Made by a program: the position numbers and the translations under genes
Notes under the pieces: generated by a model
Told to the model about the DNA's origin: nothing
What the model saw: only the letters and a program-made list of their open reading frames with translations
The model's database searches: none
Shown here: positions 28,208-52,270 of the stretch, piece by piece
Layout of the letters: the number at the start of each line of letters is the position of its first letter
Numbering within the stretch: position 1 is the first letter of the stretch
Assembly (NCBI RefSeq): GCF_003991225.1
Contig: NZ_JTFC01000012.1
Location: 1 to 64,000 of the forward strand
Length of the DNA: 64,000 nt
DNA from: Candidatus Kurthia intestinigallinarum
Lineage (GTDB): Bacteria > Bacillota > Bacilli > Bacillales_A > Planococcaceae
Direction of reading: 5' to 3'

Positions 28208-29623
28208 TTATTTTATACAATTATTATTTTCTACAATAATACGTTTAGCTACCTCATAGCCACCCTTTACAACAATTGGTGAGCCGCCACCTGGATGCAC
28301 TGTCCCGCCAACAAAATACACATTTTTAAGTCTTGAGTCTTTATTTGCTGGTCTGAAAAAACTGCCGCGTAATGAATTGGATGCCTGACCATAAATTGCG
28401 CCTTGCATCACATGAAATGTCTCGGCAATATAGCTTGGTGGTAGCTGTTTTCGTGCTTCGATTTGTGAAGTATTAATCCCCCAACGCGTTAGTGCCTCGT
28501 TGACTTGCTGCTGTGCTTTTTTCATCGACAGCGCTGTTTTTGCAGGGGCATTTACTAATACAAATAATCCTGGATGCCCTTCTTTAGTAGCGGCATATGG
28601 ATAACAGCTATACACCGTCGCCTCATTTGCTAATTGAGAGTTTCGAAGAAATTGAAATTCCGCCTTGTAATCATCGCTAAATAATACATTGTGATAATGC
28701 AGCGGCACCGGCTCTTTGAGTGTAATAAGCTCGACATAAGCTGATGTCGATAACTCATACGTGCGTGGCTGTCGCCCTAATAATGTCTGCGCCACTGCAT
28801 AATCAATATCACTAATAATCATATCTGCGCTGTACTGTCCTTTAGCAGTTTCACAAAATGTTACTTCGTTATTTGCCATCGCCAACTTTTCAATTTGCTC
28901 ATTAATATGAATATGTACACCCTGCTCTAATAGTAATTCCTCTAGCACACGTGCAATCGTCGTTGCTCCGCCGTCTAAATAATACGTACCATCTACTAAT
29001 TCAAAATAGGCAATCATCGCAAAAGTCGCCGGAGAAGCATAGGGCGATGAGCCAATATACGTTGCAAAGCGGCCGAATAACTGACGGACTGTAGGATGCG
29101 GAAAATAGCGCGCTAAAAAGGTGTCCAATGTTTCAAAAGGATGTGCCTGTACTAAATGATAAAGGAGACTTGGCTTTACATAATCTTTGATTGAAAAAAA
29201 GGTTTTCGTTAAAAAAGCTTTTTCACTTAACTTGAAAAGGCGCGTCACTTCCTCTAAAAAAGCAGGATAATTCGCGGCACTTACCGGATCAATGGCCGCA
29301 AGCTGTTGTTGCATGTTGTGACGATTCGTCGTAAAGGTTACTTCATGCTCTCCCCACTGATGCTTCGTGGCATTGTCGAGCTTTTTAAAAGGCAGTAGCT
29401 TTTTTGCATCACCAAACGGTGCAACCAATTCCCAAAAGTAACGTGGCATCGTCAGTGTATTAGGACCATAATCAAATTGATGCTCCCCGACTTGAATCGA
29501 CTGCATTTTGCCACCAAGCCAAGCATTTTTCTCAAAAATATGCACATCATAGTGACGACTAAGCGTGAGTGCCGCAGCCATTCCCCCTAGCCCTCCACCA
29601 ATAATAATGGCACGTTTTTTCAT
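28208..29623 (-). CDS. CrtN/CrtI-family carotenoid FAD oxidoreductase (CrtP/CrtNb-like)
   Basis: Translation probably starts at the ATG at 29623, which overlaps the preceding gene's stop as ATGA. The 471-residue protein has a dinucleotide fold GGGLGG at 9-14, the flavin-binding LGGKMQ near 35, and the C-terminal FVGGTVHPGGGSP signature of phytoene-desaturase-type enzymes. As the second member of this family in the operon, it more likely oxidises terminal methyl groups (CrtP/CrtNb role) than introduces double bonds. It is the last gene of a five-gene operon. The exact step is inferred from C30 carotenoid pathways of other Firmicutes. Confidence 0.85.
   Translation of the reverse strand: MKKRAIIIGGGLGGMAAALTLSRHYDVHIFEKNAWLGGKMQSIQVGEHQFDYGPNTLTMPRYFWELVAPFGDAKKLLPFKKLDNATKHQWGEHEVTFTTNRHNMQQQLAAIDPVSAANYPAFLEEVTRLFKLSEKAFLTKTFFSIKDYVKPSLLYHLVQAHPFETLDTFLARYFPHPTVRQLFGRFATYIGSSPYASPATFAMIAYFELVDGTYYLDGGATTIARVLEELLLEQGVHIHINEQIEKLAMANNEVTFCETAKGQYSADMIISDIDYAVAQTLLGRQPRTYELSTSAYVELITLKEPVPLHYHNVLFSDDYKAEFQFLRNSQLANEATVYSCYPYAATKEGHPGLFVLVNAPAKTALSMKKAQQQVNEALTRWGINTSQIEARKQLPPSYIAETFHVMQGAIYGQASNSLRGSFFRPANKDSRLKNVYFVGGTVHPGGGSPIVVKGGYEVAKRIIVENNNCIK
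28211..28230. repeat. TTATACAAT-type dispersed motif, site 3
   Basis: TTTTATACAATTATTATTTT overlaps the last codons of the carotenoid oxidoreductase (ENNNCIK), so in this case the motif is also coding. Confidence 0.6.
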
Positions 29624-30705
29624 AGCTTTCGCCCCTTCCAATACATCGATTTTTTACGTGCAGTTTGAATCATTGTCGTACCTAATAACACACAATACGC
29701 GCATGCACTGACCGGCATCAATAAGCTAAAAATCGATAGCTGCTTTGCAACATAATCACTGACTAGGCGCATAGCGGTAATGCAGATGAATGGCAATGTG
29801 TATAAAAGATGCTGTGTACTAAGCCCAATAATGAATAATACACCAGGCATCACAAAATATATGCTATAAAAAAGAATGAGCAAACAACCAAGGACATAGG
29901 AATGCTGAATACCTCGAAAGCAATTTTTTTGAAAACCATGCCATGTATCACGAATCGTTGCATACATCGCACACGACACAAAATCGGTAATATTGTAGAG
30001 CATAGCGCGCTTGCCCGATTTTTTTAACATTCGAAACAGCGCGACATCCTCGACTACCTCATTCTTCACCGCTGTATGCCCACCTATTTCAAAATAGGCA
30101 TCCCGGCGAACCGCAATAAAGGCACCACTTGCCGCAGTCGCTGCTGGCATACACTGACGATTCGCCAAATAAATTGGTAAATGCGCATGAACAAAAAAAT
30201 GAAGCAATGGCGTCAGTAATTTTTCGAGCCAATTTCGCATCTCAAAGCGCGGAAAACCTGATAGTGCATCAATTGGCCGTTCAAACATCGTCGCAGTTGC
30301 CAAAAGCGCCTTTGGATGAAGCGTCACATCGGCATCAATCCATACGAAAATATCACCCGTTGCCTGCTCAGCCAAACGCTGACAGGCATGCGGCTTCCCG
30401 TGCCAATCACTTGGTAAGGCATCACCATATAATAGACGAAAACGCGTGTCGAGTGACTGATTTTCTTGAAGAAGCGTGGCCGTGCCATCCGTCGATTGAT
30501 CATCATAAAAAAGAAATTCTGCCTGCTCATAGTCTATGTTATGCAGGTTTTTCATTAGACGTTGGACATTCGTTGCCTCATCTCGAAGCGGAATTAATAC
30601 GCTAATGGAAGGATTCGAATGGCTTTGAATCGTCATACGCCGCAAAAATTGCACATTTATAACTAACCATAAAACACCAATAATAAATGGCAGTATGATT
30701 ACCAT
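29620..30705 (-). CDS. carotenoid glycosyltransferase, CrtQ-like (GT2)
   Basis: The 361-residue protein has an N-terminal membrane helix (residues 2-20), the GT2 start SVLIPLRDE at 35-43, FYDDQSTDGT near 66-75, the metal-binding DAD at 124-126 and two or more helices at the C-terminus (about 270-350). This layout is that of CrtQ, which adds glucose to a carboxylated C30 carotenoid in staphyloxanthin-type synthesis. It overlaps the acyltransferase gene upstream by 7 nt and the oxidoreductase downstream by 4 nt. Acceptor and sugar are inferred from pathway context. Confidence 0.82.
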   Translation of the reverse strand: MVIILPFIIGVLWLVINVQFLRRMTIQSHSNPSISVLIPLRDEATNVQRLMKNLHNIDYEQAEFLFYDDQSTDGTATLLQENQSLDTRFRLLYGDALPSDWHGKPHACQRLAEQATGDIFVWIDADVTLHPKALLATATMFERPIDALSGFPRFEMRNWLEKLLTPLLHFFVHAHLPIYLANRQCMPAATAASGAFIAVRRDAYFEIGGHTAVKNEVVEDVALFRMLKKSGKRAMLYNITDFVSCAMYATIRDTWHGFQKNCFRGIQHSYVLGCLLILFYSIYFVMPGVLFIIGLSTQHLLYTLPFICITAMRLVSDYVAKQLSIFSLLMPVSACAYCVLLGTTMIQTARKKSMYWKGRKL

Positions 30706-31301
30706 AGGCGTGTAAAGCCCTTCAGATCATTTGTGATAACACTTGCCTTTAATGTGTCAATTTCTGTTGTCATCATTTGTTGTATATTTACAGGCTGTAC
30801 CTTTGGCGTCAGCTGACATGCAATATCTCCACGTACGCCATCTGTAAAGGAATAATAAATGGAGATAAAAAGCAGCTTATATTTTGGAAATCGACTCATC
30901 AAGCGCTCCACTCCTGGTTGAATCGTCAGCGGCCGCTTCTCCGCATGCTCTTCGACCCCTTGCGGAAATAATATAATCGTATGTGTCTGTGCAAGACGCA
31001 GTAATTCCTTATACTCCGAAAGTTTAATCGGTTGTGAAATTGGAACAGTACCAAGCTTTTTAAAAATCGGAAATTTCTTTAAGCCAGCTGCACTCATCCC
31101 GACAATACGATTTTTCGGTAAATACCCACGCCGGTCTAATTCAAATAATACGAGTGCATCATAAAAACTACTATGATTAACAACGATGATCGATGGCTGT
31201 TCAATCCGACTAAGCTTCACGCGCATCGAACGAAACATGCGTCTTAAAAATAGTTTCTGTCCGATGTGAAACATGGAATAGCTAAGTTTTTTTCGCTCCA
31301 T
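30699..31301 (-). CDS. PlsC-type acyltransferase of the carotenoid operon
   Basis: The 200-residue protein has the acyltransferase H-x4-D motif at H43-SSFY-D48 and FPQGVEE at 112-118, the counterpart of the FPEGTRS motif of lysophosphatidate acyltransferases. AAGGAG precedes the ATG. In similar carotenoid clusters a PlsC-like acyltransferase esterifies the sugar of the glycosyl-carotenoid, which I infer here. A plain phospholipid acyltransferase is possible. It overlaps both neighbours (20 nt upstream, 7 nt downstream). Confidence 0.8.
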   Translation of the reverse strand: MERKKLSYSMFHIGQKLFLRRMFRSMRVKLSRIEQPSIIVVNHSSFYDALVLFELDRRGYLPKNRIVGMSAAGLKKFPIFKKLGTVPISQPIKLSEYKELLRLAQTHTIILFPQGVEEHAEKRPLTIQPGVERLMSRFPKYKLLFISIYYSFTDGVRGDIACQLTPKVQPVNIQQMMTTEIDTLKASVITNDLKGFTRLW

Positions 31302-32010
31302 TATAAAATCTCCTTCCTATCTGAAGTAGACTAAAACTAATCACGGCGACAATACATGCCATATAGAGTTTTGCTAATAGCGCAATCCAAATAAATAACA
31401 CAACAATTGTCCAAAACACCATCTTCATGCGGTGAATACTTTGTTTTGACGGTAATTGTTTTATGCGCGGCAATAGCAGCTGCACGACAAAGGCAATGCA
31501 AAACCAGCCAAAGAAATTACTAAACGGTATACCGTAATACGCACTTTCACTATCCCATAACCAGTACCCCTTCACAACATATGCTACGGGGTCGAGCACT
31601 AAATCGAGTACGACAACATACAGCGCAGCGACGAGTGCCTTAACTAGACGGGTTTTAAACGATAGTGTTAGCGCATGTCCAGCCATAATCATGACAATCC
31701 AGGCAAAACCAATCCCAATGGGTACACCAAATAGGAGTGGTGGGAAGCGATTCGTATAATCATAGCTCCCGAAAAAAATATCAAAATGCGCGCTCATGCC
31801 TTCAATAGTGAAGGTTGCTACACCAATAAGAATGCTTGCGATAAGCCCTCGCTTTTTCCCAAAGGTTTCCATCGCATAACCAACTGCTACACAACCCGCA
31901 AGAATGAGAAAGACACTATTCGCCCACTCTAGCCAACTTGGAATTAAATCAAAGCCGACCAGAATCATGCCAACTAAAAACCAAATGATGTATAACTTAT
32001 AGCACCGCAT
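31282..32010 (-). CDS. CruF-like carotenoid biosynthesis membrane protein (DUF422)
   Basis: The 242-residue protein has about seven hydrophobic helices and the features GVPIGIGFAWIVMIMAGHAL, DLVLDPVAYVVKGYW and WDSESAYYGIPFSNFFGW that mark the DUF422/CruF family. Characterised CruF members hydrate the 1',2' double bond of linear carotenoids. The reaction here is inferred. It overlaps crtN by 14 nt and the acyltransferase by 20 nt. Presence of this gene suggests that the final pigment is a hydroxylated or further modified acyclic carotenoid. Confidence 0.83.
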   Translation of the reverse strand: MRCYKLYIIWFLVGMILVGFDLIPSWLEWANSVFLILAGCVAVGYAMETFGKKRGLIASILIGVATFTIEGMSAHFDIFFGSYDYTNRFPPLLFGVPIGIGFAWIVMIMAGHALTLSFKTRLVKALVAALYVVVLDLVLDPVAYVVKGYWLWDSESAYYGIPFSNFFGWFCIAFVVQLLLPRIKQLPSKQSIHRMKMVFWTIVVLFIWIALLAKLYMACIVAVISFSLLQIGRRFYNGAKKT

Positions 32011-33547
32011 GGCTCAATTCCGTAATACGATAGTCGAGTTCCTTTGGAAGCGGCTTGATTGGATACGTTTTCTCACCATCGCGTTCTAAAATTAAATTCG
32101 CCGAAATACGCGCAGACTCAATAATAATTGGCAGACCACTACCCGGATGTGTACCACCACCTACTAACCAGCAATTCTCATATGGTGAGAAATGATTATG
32201 CGGGCGGAATGTCATCATTTGATTTAGCTGATGCCCTAAATTAAACGTTGCGCCCTTATAAACATTCATCTTCTGCTCCCAGTCAACTGGTGAGAACATC
32301 ATTTCCTCTTCGATATGCGCCTCTAAATCTGTTAAACCTAGACGCTCCTCTAATGTTTTCAATAATAGCGCGCGATACTCATGCTTCACTTCTTCCCATT
32401 CAATATCACTGAAATTGTTCGGTACAGGAGCTAATACATATAATGTTGATTTCCCTTCTGGTGCAAGTGAATCATCTGTTACAACAGGATTTTGCACATA
32501 GATGGACATGTCTTTTGACAATAATTTTGTATCTGAAATCTCTTCCATATTTTTGCGGTAATCTTCCGCAAATAAAATCGTATGATGCTGTAAGTCATAC
32601 TGCGTATCAATGCCTAAATACAGCATAAATGTCGAGCAAGAATATTGTTTTTTCTCAACTTTTTGCGGTGACCACTGGCGACTCTTCGTATTTTTTAAGA
32701 GTTTCGTCATCGCATAGCCAAAGTCTGCATTGATGACGACATCATCACAATGAAGTAATTCACCTGATTCAAGACGAATGCCCTCAATACGTTTTTTATA
32801 CTGAACTACTTCTTGAATTGGTGTATTTAAATGAATTTTGACATTCATTTCTTCAAGAACTGTCGCCATCGCTTTCGTTAATTGATTCAAACCGCCCTTT
32901 AAGTGATAAATGCCATATGCTTGCTCAATATAAGAGAGAATTGAAAAGGCGCCCGGGCAGCTCCACGGAGACATCCCTAAATATTTTGATTGGAATGTAA
33001 AGGCAAGCTGCAATTCCTCATCATTAAAATACTCCCCTAATTTGTCCATTAACGACTTCCCAAATTCTAGCTCTGGTAAAGCCTTAATTGCCTCTGGACT
33101 CATTAAATCGGTTACACTATCCATTTTTCGTTGTAGGAGTGGCGATAGCGCCTCCAATTTTTTATGTGTTTCTTGTAAATAACGTGTATAACCATGCTCA
33201 TTTCCGGGAAAAGTAGTAGCAATCGTATTCATCATTTCTTCATAGTTTGAACTCACCGTAAAACGTTTATCTGCATATACAAGCTCATATAAAGGCTTGA
33301 GTGCAATTGGCTCCACATAATCTTCTAGCTTTCGGCCCGTTAATTCAAAAATTTCTCGAATTAAATACATCATATTTAAAAACGTTGGACCGCGATCAAA
33401 TGTATACTCCCCTATTTGAATTGCACTCGTTCGTCCACCAACAAAATTTTCTTTTTCAAATACCTCTACCTCATACCCTGCATTTGCTAACAACATGGCT
33501 GATGTCAATCCACCAGGACCTGCACCAATAACATAAATTTTTTTCAC
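31997..33547 (-). CDS. crtN: CrtN-type diapophytoene/phytoene desaturase
   Basis: The 516-residue FAD enzyme starts at GTG with AGGAGG 8 nt upstream. GAGPGGL at 8-14 and FVGGRTS near 36-42 form the dinucleotide fold, and the C-terminus has CWLVGGGTHPGSGLPI, the family signature. It leads the five-gene carotenoid operon. CrtN introduces double bonds in 4,4'-diapophytoene. The CrtM-like synthase needed to make that substrate is not in this window, so it must be elsewhere. Expression is probably controlled from the divergent region shared with the MerR-type regulator. Confidence 0.9.
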   Translation of the reverse strand: MKKIYVIGAGPGGLTSAMLLANAGYEVEVFEKENFVGGRTSAIQIGEYTFDRGPTFLNMMYLIREIFELTGRKLEDYVEPIALKPLYELVYADKRFTVSSNYEEMMNTIATTFPGNEHGYTRYLQETHKKLEALSPLLQRKMDSVTDLMSPEAIKALPELEFGKSLMDKLGEYFNDEELQLAFTFQSKYLGMSPWSCPGAFSILSYIEQAYGIYHLKGGLNQLTKAMATVLEEMNVKIHLNTPIQEVVQYKKRIEGIRLESGELLHCDDVVINADFGYAMTKLLKNTKSRQWSPQKVEKKQYSCSTFMLYLGIDTQYDLQHHTILFAEDYRKNMEEISDTKLLSKDMSIYVQNPVVTDDSLAPEGKSTLYVLAPVPNNFSDIEWEEVKHEYRALLLKTLEERLGLTDLEAHIEEEMMFSPVDWEQKMNVYKGATFNLGHQLNQMMTFRPHNHFSPYENCWLVGGGTHPGSGLPIIIESARISANLILERDGEKTYPIKPLPKELDYRITELSHAVL

Positions 33548-46230: not shown

Positions 46231-48084
46231 TTATTTATTTTCTAGCACTTCAATTTCTTCAATGATTTCTGCCTCTTGTGTTAAGACATACCATTCATTC
46301 ACCCATTGCTCTAGTTGCTGCACCGTTTCTTTTTTCTTCGGCAGCTTCGCCGTTTTTAAATACCGTTGCACGGCACTATACGATACATTCGCTTCTTCCG
46401 CAATAACAGACAATGGAATATTTCGTACCTCTTTAATTTCTTTTAACATTTCAGGTGATAATGTACGACGTTCTTTTTCTTGCTTAGCCTCTGTATAAAT
46501 TTCATTTGAAATCGTTTGAGGAATCAACAATTTACGATTTTCCTCTACAACGACATCGGGTGGTAAAATAACGACTTGTACTTTCTGCCATTCATTTTTG
46601 TACCAATAACGCTGGTCGGCTATTTCTGCATCAGTAAATTGTGTTTCATAATACCATGATTTAATAACCGAGTCCTGCATTAATTCATCCAATACGGTTT
46701 CAAGCTTTTCACGATTTTTCGAGCCCGTATAGCGTGGATTCAAGTCCATCGCATGATTTAAGGCTTCTACCGTAAATGGCTCCAATAAATCTTCTGTACG
46801 TACTTTCCATTCATAATTCAAAAAGCGAACAAGGCGCTTATGCGGTCGTTTTTGATAATAATTGTACTGAAATACTTTGTAATCTAGATAGCCAAATGCT
46901 TGCGTATTATCGGTTAAATAATATGCCAGTAATGACGATGGCTTAATCGTTAATGAATAAATCCCTTTTGCCTTACCAGTCTTTTTATCATACGCCATTT
47001 CAAGTGAACCGATTTGGAACATTGGCTGGAAATTCGTCAAATCATATTCTGTACGGTCTTCAAGGTTCGCCTCATTGACGATAATGAAATCATCATTTTC
47101 AACGGCAATCCACACACTTGATAATGCGGCTACACGTTGCATAATAGCAAAACGTTCACGTTCACGCGTTTTGAAATTTTGACGATACGGGTCCGCATAT
47201 TTCAATTTCAAAGCCTCATCACTTTCAAAATGAATATAGCCTTCTGAATTTTTAGAGCTCACCATCCATAAGTATGAAATCAAATCGAATAAATCCGCTG
47301 ATAATTCATCAAGTGACGTAATGGCAGACTCCATAAGTGAGAACCATACTTTCTTTTTCTCTACTGTATCAGCAGGGAGGCGCTGAATTTCTTCATTCGT
47401 CCTAATTTCTGCTTGCCCCTGTAAACTACCATCCATTCCAAGAATATCTTTTGAATACGTACCATTTTCATTTTTCGTGAAATCCGGTTTTGTTACTAAA
47501 TCTCGCAAGATTTGAAATGTCGAGCTTGAATTTGAATATAAATGCTCTTTTTCAATAATGCGCTCAATCGGTTGCTCTAATTCAACATGTACTAAATCTG
47601 CAGGAATCTCTTCTTTTTGAATCATTTCGACCGCCTTTTTAACAAGCGGATCAGAAATTTCTTTAATTTGTGATTCAACGAGCGACTTTTGTGTTTCTTT
47701 TTTGATTTTTTTTGGTGGTTCAGTCACTTTCGTAACAGGTTCTGCTTTTTTGACTGGCTTTTGTCGCGCTGAATCACTTTGCTTTAACAAAGGTTCAATT
47801 TTCATACGCACATATTCACTATTTTTCTCAACGCGTTCAATCAAAGTTGCCTTATTATAGGGCTGTAATTCAAAAAAGTCCTCATTAATGACTTTTAAAA
47901 GCTTCTTAAAGCTCGCAGACGATTCATATTCCTCGTCTACGCTTAACATATAAGCATCTTCGGACCATTCAATTACTTGTTCTGGATAGCTCGCTACAAA
48001 ATAGGGCTGCACAATTTCACAAATGGCTAGCGGCTTCCATTCTTTTTTGATTAATAACGTTGGTGGCAACTGTTCATAATTCAT
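46231..48084 (-). CDS. plasmid replication initiator (Rep), winged-helix type with C-terminal HTH
   Basis: The 617-residue protein has a Lys/Pro-rich linker at about 105-135 and, from about 240 to 470, a region resembling the winged-helix replication initiators of iteron plasmids (ELSADLFDLISYLWMV, then FKTRERERFAIMQRV and GYLDYKVFQYNYYQKR). A clear helix-turn-helix near 556-581 (IPLSVIAEEANVSYSAVQRY) follows. Its start lies about 80 bp from an array of iterons, the usual place for an initiator that binds them. It is transcribed away from the origin. The N-terminal 230 residues have no known counterpart for me. The initiator role is inferred from this combination. Confidence 0.82.
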   Translation of the reverse strand: MNYEQLPPTLLIKKEWKPLAICEIVQPYFVASYPEQVIEWSEDAYMLSVDEEYESSASFKKLLKVINEDFFELQPYNKATLIERVEKNSEYVRMKIEPLLKQSDSARQKPVKKAEPVTKVTEPPKKIKKETQKSLVESQIKEISDPLVKKAVEMIQKEEIPADLVHVELEQPIERIIEKEHLYSNSSSTFQILRDLVTKPDFTKNENGTYSKDILGMDGSLQGQAEIRTNEEIQRLPADTVEKKKVWFSLMESAITSLDELSADLFDLISYLWMVSSKNSEGYIHFESDEALKLKYADPYRQNFKTRERERFAIMQRVAALSSVWIAVENDDFIIVNEANLEDRTEYDLTNFQPMFQIGSLEMAYDKKTGKAKGIYSLTIKPSSLLAYYLTDNTQAFGYLDYKVFQYNYYQKRPHKRLVRFLNYEWKVRTEDLLEPFTVEALNHAMDLNPRYTGSKNREKLETVLDELMQDSVIKSWYYETQFTDAEIADQRYWYKNEWQKVQVVILPPDVVVEENRKLLIPQTISNEIYTEAKQEKERRTLSPEMLKEIKEVRNIPLSVIAEEANVSYSAVQRYLKTAKLPKKKETVQQLEQWVNEWYVLTQEAEIIEEIEVLENK

Positions 48085-48599: not shown

Positions 48600-48608
48600 T
48601 GTGGATAA
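48600..48608 (-). promoter_or_regulatory. DnaA box (TGTGGATAA)
   Basis: Exact match to the consensus TTATCCACA on the minus strand, just right of the tandem iterons. Confidence 0.8.
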
Positions 48609-48648: not shown

Positions 48649-48657
48649 TTATCCACA
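48649..48657 (+). promoter_or_regulatory. DnaA box (TTATCCACA)
   Basis: Exact consensus, inverted with respect to the box at 48600, 40 bp apart. It implies that host DnaA assists opening of the origin. Confidence 0.8.
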
Positions 48658-48833: not shown

Positions 48834-50342
48834 ATGAACATGGCAGCGATTTATGAACAACTATTTAATGTATCTATTCATCGTTATAAACAAAAAAATT
48901 CAACTGCATCGCATTCATTACAAGAACTAGCAAACCAGGCAGAACAGCATGCTGTACAGGGTGGCATTTTTGCGGTGCGTCAAAAAGAAGATTTTGCTTC
49001 AAATGGTGGCGTAAAGGGTATGATTTTAACATCGATTGAATCATTGCTTGTTCATAGTGCATCACTATCGCACTTTACACCGAATCCCTATGTGTCTTAT
49101 CGCTATACAAATCATGCGCGAACACATGTGACGGGCTTTAGCGACGACCATTTATTGCAAATCAATACATTTGTCGTGGATATTGATACGAAAAAGCATT
49201 CTGTTGAAGACATTTTGCTAACAACAATGGATAACAGCATCGGGCTACCAACATTAATTATTGAATCACCACGCGGTTATCAATTGTACTTTATGCTTGA
49301 AACACCGTTTTACTTATCGACGGATAATAAAGCACGTAGTTTGCATATCGCAAAACGAATCGCACAAAATATTAAACAAAGTCTACGTGACATCGATGCC
49401 GATGAATATTGTAATGACTTTGGCTTTTTCCGTGTGCCAACCGAACAAAATATTCGCTTCTGCCAATTGAATCACGTCTATAATATTGCCTCGCTAATTG
49501 ATTGGTCGATACGCCAAGATGATAATATCGAACGACCGCTCTACATTCGTGGTCCAAAAGTGAATAATTTACGCTTAACTGAACAACCATGGTTCCAAGC
49601 AATTATTCAAACGAACAACATTCGTGGTCAAAAGGGTCAACTCGGTCGAAACAATGCTATTTTCACGCTTGCACTTGCTTGCTATCACGATCAATGGTCA
49701 TTTGAAAAAACGTATGATTTACTCGATGAGTGGAATTCAACGCTTCAATCACCGCTAAAAGATAGTGAAGTGCGAACAATTTGTCGCTCAGCCTATTCAG
49801 GTAAATATAATGGGCCGCAAAAGATGTATATTGAACAGTTAATCGTTGAATATGTTGATGCATCAATTGAATTACCGCAATTAGCTATTGGTAGCTGGTA
49901 CAAGCATAAAAAAGAGCGCAAAGACCGCGTCCGTTCACATCTTGAGGAATGGGAAGCAGATGTCATTGCGTTTATTGAAGCACGTACATCAATTGAAGAA
50001 CCATTTGTTCAATTATCACAAAGTGAATTATGTCAGGCTTTAGGTATCGCCAAAAGTACACTGAATAAATTATTAAATGCATCATCAACAATTATTCGTA
50101 AAGTATCTGGTGCAGGACGTGGCGCTATTACACAATTTTCAACAACGACATTATTCAAATCTTATTTAGTAACATCATTTATCGCCAATAAAAAATCATC
50201 AACATTTATTCCATTTGCAGCTGCACAGCTTTACACAATTATCGCACCAGTAGCACTTCTACCATTACTGTCATTTATTCACGAAACAGCATCTCAAATC
50301 GAACGAAGGCGAAGGCATCACTTATTGGTCCACAGTGCCTAA
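48834..50342 (+). CDS. replication protein with primase-polymerase-like and PriCT-1 domains
   Basis: The 502-residue protein diverges from rep across the origin. FVVDIDTKK (metal-binding DID at 116-118), ESPRGYQLYFML (about 144-155) and DADEYCNDFGFFRVP (188-202) match the three motifs of archaeo-eukaryotic-type primases. Residues about 266-335 (GRNNAIFTLALACY, LDEWN, EVRTICRSAYSGKYNGP) are the primase C-terminal domain PriCT-1. A helix-turn-helix-like segment (LSQSELCQALGIAKSTLNKLL) lies near 395-418. Such proteins prime plasmid DNA synthesis. GAGGTGA precedes the ATG. With Rep it gives the replicon two replication proteins. Confidence 0.87.
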   Translation: MNMAAIYEQLFNVSIHRYKQKNSTASHSLQELANQAEQHAVQGGIFAVRQKEDFASNGGVKGMILTSIESLLVHSASLSHFTPNPYVSYRYTNHARTHVTGFSDDHLLQINTFVVDIDTKKHSVEDILLTTMDNSIGLPTLIIESPRGYQLYFMLETPFYLSTDNKARSLHIAKRIAQNIKQSLRDIDADEYCNDFGFFRVPTEQNIRFCQLNHVYNIASLIDWSIRQDDNIERPLYIRGPKVNNLRLTEQPWFQAIIQTNNIRGQKGQLGRNNAIFTLALACYHDQWSFEKTYDLLDEWNSTLQSPLKDSEVRTICRSAYSGKYNGPQKMYIEQLIVEYVDASIELPQLAIGSWYKHKKERKDRVRSHLEEWEADVIAFIEARTSIEEPFVQLSQSELCQALGIAKSTLNKLLNASSTIIRKVSGAGRGAITQFSTTTLFKSYLVTSFIANKKSSTFIPFAAAQLYTIIAPVALLPLLSFIHETASQIERRRRHHLLVHSA

Positions 50343-50367
50343 ACATATTTTAAGGTCATCTCTGGTT

Positions 50368-50383
50368 TGTTCCACGTGAAACA
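50368..50383. promoter_or_regulatory. parS-like site (TGTTCCACGTGAAACA)
   Basis: One base differs from the perfect palindrome bound by Spo0J/ParB in Bacillus chromosomes, at a position known to vary. It lies 26 bp after the primase-like gene and 157 bp before parA. It is the only such site I found in the window. Confidence 0.85.
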
Positions 50384-50480
50384 TGTTTTACTATATTCAA
50401 CCTGGTAGCACATTGATTTTTGAAAACATGGTATACTATGTATAGTCCTATAATGAGCTGTATAGCTTTATTTTATTAAG

Positions 50481-50523
50481 GTTTATACAAATTACGAATA
50501 GTTAAGAAATTATACAAATGTAC
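50481..50523. repeat. TTATACAA motif pair in the parA leader (sites 10 and 11)
   Basis: GTTTATACAAATTAC (50481-50495) and AAATTATACAAATGTAC (50507-50523) are direct repeats 26 bp apart, ending 16 bp before the parA start codon. They are the most likely operator of the par operon. Confidence 0.65.
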
Positions 50524-50539: not shown

Positions 50540-51730
50540 ATGGCAATTAAACTCTTTTTCGGAAATGTTAAAGGTGGCGTTGGTAAAACAACAATTACTG
50601 ATATGACAGCCTATATATTAGCCACACAATATAATCAACGTGTTCTTGTTATTGATTGTGACCATCAGGGGGATTCTACGGACTTCTTCTGTGATTATTT
50701 CAATATTGATTTAGGTATGGAGCAAGGACAGCATGGCTCTATGTTTACAATTTATGATGCCATTCAAGATTATGCAAAGAACAATAATCCTGAAGCAATT
50801 CATAAAGCAATTGTTCCAGTGACGGATTCATTATCGTTTATTCCAGCTAATTCATTGTTAGAAGAATTTTCAACATTCCTTTCTCGGATGAAAACAACAG
50901 AATCAATTCAGGGTACAACCTATATTCGTAATGTCCTTGAAACGATTGAGGATGATTATGATTTCATTTTATTTGATATTCCACCAAGTGCAGGACATCT
51001 TGTAACAAATGTTATTATCGCATCAGATTTTTATGTAGGGATTATGTCGACGGAGAAAAAAGCATTCCGCAAGCTACAACCCTTCTTTGATATGTGTAAT
51101 GAACATAGTGTACGTGCACAGCAATTTTTACAAGATTATGATGTTGCACAAAATTTAGGTGTCGTCATGTATTTTGTTACACAAAATCTACAAGAAGAAA
51201 AATATGTAGCCGATGCTGCGCAGGATTTTTTTGGGGATCTAATTTTTGACTCAAAAATTCGTCGTGCAGATGTCGTTCGTGAACATGAACGCATGCCATC
51301 ATTATTCTTTGAAGATACTGAGGAGAATCATGACTTCTTACAAATGTTTGAAGAGGTTACACAGGAATTATTAATTCGTATGCAGGCATTACCTGAAGAT
51401 ACAGTACGTGTCGCAACACAGGAAATTTTAATGCCATTACAAGAATATTTTACAGATGAACAGTTATTTCGCTTGAAAGAAGCCATTGAAGGTAAGGGAT
51501 TACAAAATATCGAATCCCTCCGTTTACGAGGTTATAAATCAAGTGATCCGCGTAAAACATTACAAACGCATATGATTCGTCTATTTACAGGCTCTAAAGA
51601 CGATGAGGCGTTATTTGAGCAACAATTCATTCAGTTAGAGAAATGGCTTGCAAAAGAGCCTACAGCATATAGTATTAGCGCGATGCAGCGTTTAATTCGT
51701 AAGCATCGTAAAGCGTTAGAGATTGTTTAG
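50540..51730 (+). CDS. parA: ParA-type partition ATPase
   Basis: The 396-residue protein has the deviant Walker A KGGVGKTT at 11-18, LVIDCDHQGD at 36-45 (Walker A') and ILFDIPPSAG near 143-152 (Walker B). It lacks the N-terminal HTH of type Ia ParA, so it belongs with type Ib or chromosomal-type ATPases, but it is longer than they are owing to a C-terminal extension of about 120 residues (QEILMPLQEYFTDEQL onward). It should drive segregation by dynamic binding to the nucleoid. The adjacent gene, 12 bp downstream, encodes the presumed DNA-binding partner. Confidence 0.92.
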   Translation: MAIKLFFGNVKGGVGKTTITDMTAYILATQYNQRVLVIDCDHQGDSTDFFCDYFNIDLGMEQGQHGSMFTIYDAIQDYAKNNNPEAIHKAIVPVTDSLSFIPANSLLEEFSTFLSRMKTTESIQGTTYIRNVLETIEDDYDFILFDIPPSAGHLVTNVIIASDFYVGIMSTEKKAFRKLQPFFDMCNEHSVRAQQFLQDYDVAQNLGVVMYFVTQNLQEEKYVADAAQDFFGDLIFDSKIRRADVVREHERMPSLFFEDTEENHDFLQMFEEVTQELLIRMQALPEDTVRVATQEILMPLQEYFTDEQLFRLKEAIEGKGLQNIESLRLRGYKSSDPRKTLQTHMIRLFTGSKDDEALFEQQFIQLEKWLAKEPTAYSISAMQRLIRKHRKALEIV

Positions 51731-51742
51731 GAGGTGGCATTC

Positions 51743-52270
51743 ATGGCCGATTGGTTAAAACCCAACACGTCATTGAATATTAAGAAAGTAAAACCTCAGG
51801 CTAAAAAAGATGATGAGGTTTCTTCAACACAAAATACATTAACGAAAAAAATGTCAAAGCGTGAAATTCCAAATTTAAATTATCATGCAGAACGCCCACG
51901 TTATACATCAGATGTACGTCGCCCAATTGGCGTGTCTCCTGATACGAAAGATGAAATCGCAGAAATTGCAGAAGACCATGATGTAAAATTTAATATGATG
52001 GTCGCGGTCTTAGCCTTATTTTTTGAGGATCATCAATCAGAGGAGCTTATTGAAAAATATCGTCCTCATGCAGAAGATATTGCAAAAGCAACGACAACAT
52101 CGCGTGCGATACACATTTATCCAAATATTTATCGCATGATCCGTCACAATGCACGTGTGCATAAGCTAACGATTCGTGAATTATCACAAATGATGGTCGA
52201 TGTTTATCGTGATCACCAAGGTGCAAGTCAGTTTACAGAATATGTTGACCGTTTTATGACAATGGATTAA
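51743..52270 (+). CDS. ParA partner, putative centromere-binding protein with two RHH-like segments
   Basis: AGGAGGTGG before the ATG at 51743 gives 175 residues. A basic, disordered N-terminus (1-55) is typical of partners that stimulate ParA. Two segments have the ribbon-helix-helix pattern of a short strand followed by two helices: about 59-96 (RPIGVSPDTKDEIAEIAEDH, then VKFNMMVAVLALFF) and about 120-158 (SRAIHIYPNIYRMIRHNARV, then LTIRELSQMMVDVY). A single chain with two RHH units would be a built-in dimer. It should bind the par centromere and repress the operon, which is inferred from gene order. No ParB-family motif is present. Confidence 0.75.
   Translation: MADWLKPNTSLNIKKVKPQAKKDDEVSSTQNTLTKKMSKREIPNLNYHAERPRYTSDVRRPIGVSPDTKDEIAEIAEDHDVKFNMMVAVLALFFEDHQSEELIEKYRPHAEDIAKATTTSRAIHIYPNIYRMIRHNARVHKLTIRELSQMMVDVYRDHQGASQFTEYVDRFMTMD

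Follow-up and report, generated by a model that had tools for sequence, protein, structure and literature searches.

How can a large extra replicon gain chromosome-like folding and keep step with the chromosome of its host? For most bacteria this question is open. It is raised in a concrete form by a stretch of 64,000 nucleotides from Candidatus Kurthia intestinigallinarum, called the window hereafter, in which a parS site of the chromosomal type lies inside a replication and partition locus of the plasmid type. Does the replicon use this site, which protein reads it, and what is left to the partition genes that the replicon itself encodes?

The parS site and its surroundings

The parS consensus is a 16-bp near-palindrome, TGTTNCACGTGAAACA. 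The 16-mer at positions 50368-50383 of the window, TGTTCCACGTGAAACA, agrees with this near-palindrome and is one base off the palindrome TGTTTCACGTGAAACA. The earlier note had described a site one base from a perfect palindrome between a primase-like gene and parA, and this description holds: the neighbours are the PriCT-1 gene (48834-50342) and parA (50540-51730). No other place in the whole 64-kb window has fewer than three mismatches to parS. With a first-order Markov model, about 1e-4 exact TGTTYCACGTGRAACA sites are expected in the 84-kb contig of the window, and 6e-4 to 9e-4 per relative contig of 276-434 kb (six computed). The window 16-mer is a near-perfect parS and not a product of chance. 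It stands among the following elements.

46231-48084, reverse strand: Rep-like protein, 617 aa, no Pfam or NCBIfam match, relatives in plasmid records
48222-48698, forward strand: iteron array with nine copies of ACAAGTGTCG (eight of GTGTCGCTC), from sequence repeats
48834-50342, forward strand: PriCT-1 (PF08708) protein, 502 aa, from a Pfam match
50323-50352, forward strand: origin-like block TATTGGTCCACAGTGCCTAAACATATTTTA at the 3′ end of the PriCT rep gene, from comparison by eye, with the skew minimum at 50402
50368-50383, no strand: parS, predicted Spo0J clamp-loading site TGTTCCACGTGAAACA, from motif match and conservation in relatives
50482-50519, forward strand: repeats TTTATACAAAT (50482-50492) and ATTATACAAAT (50509-50519) ahead of parA, from repeated sequence
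50540-51730, forward strand: ParA of the replicon itself, 396 aa, closest to the NCBIfam model PrgP, below cut-off
51734-52270, forward strand: small partition protein of the replicon itself, 178 aa, with weak similarity to PrgO, below cut-off

The order is thus the Rep-like gene on the reverse strand, iterons, PriCT-1 gene, parS, parA and small partition gene, with parS 15 bp beyond the origin-like block and 156 bp ahead of parA. The iteron array adjoins the 617-aa Rep gene, and some 1.6 kb separate it from the origin-like block of PriCT. Relatives of the 617-aa protein are found in 28 plasmid records, mostly of Bacillaceae, and many of them are annotated as helix-turn-helix proteins. Within the iteron array, the DnaA-box-like sequence TTATCCACA occurs at 48600 (reverse strand) and at 48649 (forward strand). 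The 502-aa PriCT-1 protein is probably a theta-replication initiator, and there seem to be two initiator systems on the replicon, one of iterons and Rep and the other of PriCT and its origin-like block. The 178-aa partition protein has no Pfam match, hence no ParB_N domain was detected in it, and its structure model is of low confidence (mean pLDDT 45.7). The TTTATACAAAT and ATTATACAAAT repeats are a candidate operator or centromere for this protein.

Is parS an ordinary part of such plasmid loci? A block related by eye to the origin-like block is found 3′ of the PriCT gene in ten other loci, namely nine plasmids with an annotated PriCT gene (among 13 fetched) plus the type-C locus of the window genome, described below, and parS adjoins it in none of the ten. 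Also, when positions 5 and 12 were left free, no parS at up to one mismatch was found in 13 stretches with related Rep, PriCT or ParA genes, 497 kb in sum, which are parts of records except for one whole plasmid. Since parS is absent beside these related plasmid loci, it seems to have been added to a shared plasmid backbone within the Kurthia lineage.

Conservation of the site and extent of the type-A replicon

The window contig (G000:C24, 84,350 bp) belongs to a 3.93-Mb genome in 247 contigs. Among the 61 related genomes searched, parA of the window type was found at 89-100% identity in four Kurthia, that is, the window genome, K. huakuii, K. massiliensis and K. senegalensis; four further Kurthia genomes do not have this parA, which we call type A. 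The earlier note had let its reading hang on conservation beside parA, and the site is indeed kept in all four Kurthia genomes with the replicon, 171-173 bp (start to start) ahead of parA. The parS of K. huakuii is reversed in orientation relative to the others, and this is permitted because parS is a palindrome. Among the four genomes, 14 of the 16 columns are invariant and the other two show just the C/T and A/G exchange that goes with the inverted copy. Of 196 flanking columns picked for comparison, 112 do not vary, and some blocks among them, the ribosome-binding site and start of parA and the origin-like block, are conserved as well as parS or better.

The homologous contigs of the three relatives are large: 359 kb in K. 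massiliensis, 354 kb in K. senegalensis and 331 kb in K. huakuii. Pairs of them share 129, 139 and 100 reciprocal best hits out of 280-323 ORFs, with block order shuffled, and 76 best hits are common to all three. The cumulative GC-skew minimum of the window contig is at 50402, 34 bp past the start of parS; it falls inside parS in K. huakuii, 128 bp after it in K. senegalensis and 83 bp before it in K. massiliensis. A skew minimum at parS in all four type-A contigs is the signature of an origin there. These contigs have a G+C content of 0.376-0.392, and plasmid-type replication and partition genes, which are looked for in a chromid, are present. The type-A contig is probably a secondary, chromid-like, circular replicon of about 350 kb: skew and gene content, as known from unclosed assemblies, indicate its separate status, and the order of contig ends is no more than suggestive of circularity.

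Other replicons with parS

When matches to parS were located genome-wide, as the earlier note had proposed, two further replicon contigs came out in the window genome, in addition to mismatched sites elsewhere. The same 16-mer is at G000:C186:16229 (type B) and a perfect palindrome is at C57:31627 (type C). C186 encodes a Rep-like protein (613 aa), ParA (273 aa) and a partner (96 aa); C57 encodes ParA (371 aa), a partner (110 aa), a PriCT protein and a Rep-like protein (564 aa), and a ClpX gene adjoins its parS. This ClpX (G000:C57:29071-30339), about 1.3 kb from parS, scores above the NCBIfam equivalog cut-off. Orthologous contigs in the relatives are 342, 434 and 317 kb for type B, and 276 and 52 kb for type C. 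Each of the 11 contigs of types A, B and C has exactly one parS at up to one mismatch to TGTTYCACGTGRAACA, and all nine exact TGTTYCACGTGRAACA sites of the four replicon-bearing genomes are on these contigs. Outside them, each genome has three to four further parS sites, with one mismatch to TGTTYCACGTGRAACA.

In type B, parS stands 100-125 bp (99 bp in the window genome by another comparison) ahead of a different parA in 4/4, with variable flanks and one copy having one mismatch. In type C, it is found on three contigs, again with one mismatch in one copy, and its region can be aligned between the copies of the window genome and K. huakuii and not with that of K. massiliensis (2/3); about 7 kb separate it from the end of parA and about 6.7 kb from the block that follows the PriCT gene. 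In types B and C, the skew minimum lies 8-12 kb away from parS or is indistinct, C57 and C186 being read in part and the overall minimum of mass_C5 being at the contig end.

Across the three types the Rep proteins (34-44% identity) are homologous, as are PriCT of A and C (46%); the ParAs are 25-34% identical. By sequence the three replicon types are distinct, yet related through their Rep proteins. Because of this homology, recurrence of parS may partly come from common descent and not from independent gain. No similarity beyond chance-level hits was detected among the three small partition proteins or between them and Spo0J.

The host machinery

If the site is read by a protein of the host, which one is it? 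The chromosome origin of the window genome is on contig C135, which carries gyrB, recF, dnaN, dnaA, noc and spo0J (judged from translations, noc by NCBIfam). In the four replicon-bearing genomes, ParB_N is confined to the adjacent Noc and Spo0J genes. Since the partners of the three replicon types are dissimilar and ParB_N is so limited, the shared 16-mer points to a shared trans factor. For the same reasons, the replicon's own small partition protein was judged unlikely to bind the 16-mer.

Noc scores above its own NCBIfam cut-off, and Spo0J below that of Noc and above that of parB_part. The recognition residues in the four replicon-bearing genomes are R/H/T/G in Spo0J versus Q/K/K/R in Noc, and at the equivalents of residues 173/201, R/G in Spo0J and Q/R in Noc were found in all seven Kurthia read. 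By a published residue code which, in the available part of its source, separates parS-type from NBS-type recognition (PMC7383237), the residues of Kurthia Spo0J are of the parS type and those of Noc of the NBS type. As a reader of the 16-mer, Noc was rejected on these residues (Q/R at the 173/201 equivalents). The binding site of Noc is a 14-mer, and a scan of the contigs with it gave one place at one mismatch (sene_C3:231385) and a few at two. Full-length SMC is encoded in 8/8 Kurthia genomes.

What is missing from these hosts is Soj. Its gene is absent between noc and spo0J in the four replicon-bearing genomes, and no orthologue was found elsewhere in them (G000, G003, G005, G006), where the best match is at most 34% and none reaches E 1e-60; among the Kurthia genomes searched, orthologues of 71-100% identity are in G001, G002 and G007 only. 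The AKGLGKGL segment at the N-terminus of Spo0J is the contact with Soj (ParA). The motif AKGLGKGLxA is present in 3/3 soj-containing Kurthia and missing in 4/4 replicon-bearing ones. Neither part of a complete chromosomal ParABS system that was looked for, a host Soj and the ParA-contact segment of Spo0J, was found in the four genomes. Where soj stands in relatives, the noc-spo0J interval of G000:C135 is 722 bp without an ORF of 80 aa; the gap is similar in K. huakuii and short in K. massiliensis and K. senegalensis. It is to be noted that the assembly of K. senegalensis has its spo0J frame (G006:C7) split into 191 and 92 aa, by a sequencing error or a real frameshift.

Soj loss and replicon parS in the family

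Does the loss of Soj go with parS on ParA contigs beyond Kurthia? Of 200 genomes of the family, 187 have a Soj match (E up to 1e-60) and 13 do not. The sampled genomes of g7, g9 and g16 (3, 2 and 3 genomes) have none at E 1e-60, and with soj-less genomes in these three further genera, soj loss recurs in the family. ParA like that of the window (E up to 1e-25) is encoded in nine of the 200: the four Kurthia, G022 and G063, both of another genus (g16), and G025, G137 and G188. The first six are without Soj and the last three have it. All six soj-less genomes of this group have parS on a ParA contig. In G022, a perfect parS is on C5, about 8 kb from ParA; G063 is a weaker case, with a one-mismatch parS on C14 about 1 kb from a different ParA and none on the contig of its window-like ParA, C83. 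Every parS at up to one mismatch in G025, G137 and G188 lies off the plasmid-type ParA contigs. G001, a soj-containing genome with a plasmid-type ParA, has no parS at up to one mismatch on such a contig, and the soj-containing G021 and G036 have no exact parS on plasmid-type ParA contigs and none at up to two mismatches in the stretches around ParA. The count is 6/6 soj-less versus 0/6 soj-containing genomes, from two lineages only and with several contigs being putative plasmids. This is a correlation.

In the soj-less genomes themselves, other ParA contigs (G003:C26 and C28, G005:C13, G063:C83 and C72) have no parS at up to one mismatch; therefore the site is not general to ParA replicons. 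The search for parS covered ten of the 13 soj-less genomes, all except G033, G072 and G078, and found it on a ParA contig in six. In G013, G015 and G031, which were searched for exact sites only, none is on a ParA contig, and the fourth such genome, G004, in 450 contigs and with no ParB_N match, is too fragmented to use. Because some soj-less genomes lack an exact parS on a ParA contig, Soj loss looks permissive and not sufficient. As a separate observation, the soj-containing Kurthia G001 has an exact parS at C22:168035, outside the listed ORFs of a 245-kb contig, which is either chromosome or secondary replicon.

A possible role of parS on the replicon

What, then, may the site do? Probably, the parS of the window is functional: host Spo0J loads there and recruits SMC-ScpAB, and the replicon is moved by its own ParA and partner. 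In such a scheme, the chromosome-encoded Spo0J, a ParB CTPase, would load at the replicon parS as a sliding clamp, and the clamps would spread across the origin region and recruit SMC-ScpAB. New replicon origins would be individualised and the arms compacted as on the chromosome, from which the replicon may benefit. Because the host is without Soj and its Spo0J without the N-terminal segment, the PrgP-like ParA and small PrgO-like partner encoded on the replicon would have to provide the movement. Types B and C may act likewise, in which case the chromosome and as many as three other replicons would share one Spo0J/SMC system. Thus, one 16-bp site on several replicon types, unseen on the related plasmids examined, suggests a simple answer to the question of folding, namely to borrow the SMC loader of the host. 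That an extra replicon recruits Spo0J and SMC had been proposed in the earlier note; conservation of the site, its recurrence on types B and C, the Spo0J residues and the chromid-like traits speak for this part, and action of Spo0J through a ParA is improbable here since soj and the N-terminal motif of Spo0J are lost.

Several observations count against this scheme. Among those given above are the homology of the Rep proteins, the distant skew minima of types B and C, the ParA contigs of soj-less genomes that do without parS, and the split spo0J frame of K. senegalensis. There is one parS per replicon, as compared with three to four further sites per genome elsewhere. Moreover, no dif-like site was found in the seven replicon contigs scanned, the best place having 6 mismatches versus 7 in a single shuffled control; this absence is unfavourable because dif is expected for SMC unloading.

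Why should parS be tolerated on replicons in these hosts? In B. subtilis, additional parS sites draw ParB away from oriC and impair origin separation, according to the accessible part of one study (PMC7614844). Such harm could explain why the soj-containing relatives examined have no plasmid parS. After Soj loss, parS may be tolerable, because with Soj an extra parS would compete with the chromosome origin. It is quite conceivable, if somewhat short of probable, that with Soj loss Spo0J-parS ceases to be a segregation centromere and becomes purely a mark for SMC loading, which makes parS safe on other replicons; in such lineages large plasmids would have acquired the parS of the host and retained it close to their origins, and every large replicon of the multipartite genome would be organised by one Spo0J/SMC system. 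The coincidence with soj loss suggests why host parS on replicons may be rare, and it raises the question whether ParA normally keeps plasmids from carrying host parS.

Spo0J might bind the site for the sake of regulation and not of SMC loading: by spreading, it would repress or time rep and parA or initiation, and copy number would be tied to the Spo0J pool. The short distances to the origin-like block and to parA in type A, and to parA in type B, fit this explanation, and in the available part of a review, insertion of parS upstream of repA on a test plasmid is described to lower adjacent expression on binding of ParB (PMC7022226). Simple promoter control does not fit type C, in which parS is present as well but lies too far from the end of parA, and we regard regulation as an unlikely purpose of the site; it is compatible with SMC loading, and both could occur.

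A little less likely still is that parS now has no function and is merely left over, either from a common ancestor of these replicons that used it or as a neutral copy of a chromosomal site. A single ancestral acquisition is possible in view of the homology of Rep across the three types. Certain ParA replicons of these cells do without parS, and one type-B copy and one type-C copy bear a mismatch. However, all columns but two flip-equivalent ones are identical among four species beside variable columns, the palindrome is preserved through inversion, where it stands with respect to parA varies with the replicon type, and parS recurs in a second genus.

The suggestion in the earlier note that this is a chromosomal parS with a plasmid locus integrated beside it is very improbable and was dropped, for although the contig carries metabolic genes (by eye including panB, panC and panD) and the assemblies are unclosed, the GC-skew minimum is at parS in 4/4 type-A contigs, including those of 331-359 kb, which come from three species and share the 76 three-way best hits in shuffled order, dnaA, gyrB, recF, noc and spo0J are on a different contig (C135), and the non-replicon parS sites of these genomes are inside genes reading as recF, dnaX, spo0J and others.

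Relation to known systems

Recruitment of the host loader, as preferred here, has a close counterpart in the chromosomal Spo0J-parS-SMC system of B. subtilis, which is alike in the 16-bp parS, the parS-type residues of Spo0J, SMC and the location of the site near an origin. Unlike in B. subtilis, parS of Kurthia is also on secondary replicons with plasmid-type origins, there is no Soj, and Spo0J is without AKGLGKGL. ParB is kept without ParA also in Streptococcus pneumoniae, which lacks parA as stated in the part of the same review at hand (PMC7022226); there the system is chromosomal, whereas in Kurthia extra replicons bear parS as well. ParA of the replicon and its partner score best against the NCBIfam models of the PrgP/PrgO plasmid partition system, but below the curated cut-offs, and the Spo0J-type parS alongside is an extra.

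Use of a partition system encoded by another replicon is found in SGI1, which hijacks the parABS system of IncC plasmids (PMC10954446, available part). SGI1 is a mobile element that borrows from a plasmid, whereas the Kurthia replicons appear to borrow the chromosomal ParB. Large extrachromosomal replicons show ori-ori contacts and arm alignment in a further study, whose authors consider that SMC-ScpAB probably causes the arm bridging and attribute the ori contacts in Agrobacterium to ParB/RepB (PMC13342612, available part). The chromosome-like organisation is alike, but host-type parS is not mentioned in that part of the paper; such a parS would be one way for large replicons to obtain arm alignment and ori-ori contacts. 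Among the literature matches listed, none concerns Spo0J-type parS on plasmids or a Kurthia chromid, and mention in the parS survey of Livny and colleagues (2007) is possible.

Other genes of the type-A replicon

What else is carried on this replicon? In K. massiliensis and K. senegalensis, tRNA-Arg(CCT) is on the type-A contig, and no second copy is among the BLAST hits read (4/4 and 3/5, respectively), the others being tRNA-Arg(TCT) or other tRNAs. A different contig carries it in K. huakuii and in the window genome, where its neighbours resemble those on the K. massiliensis replicon, and in G007 it was not seen among the hits read. Because of these latter cases, tRNA-Arg(CCT) is not clearly a core gene. 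In the window, three genes at 736-2799 resemble panD, panC and panB by eye, and a cluster at 28208-33547 is carotenoid-like by eye, with two phytoene-desaturase-like proteins, a glycosyltransferase and an acyltransferase.
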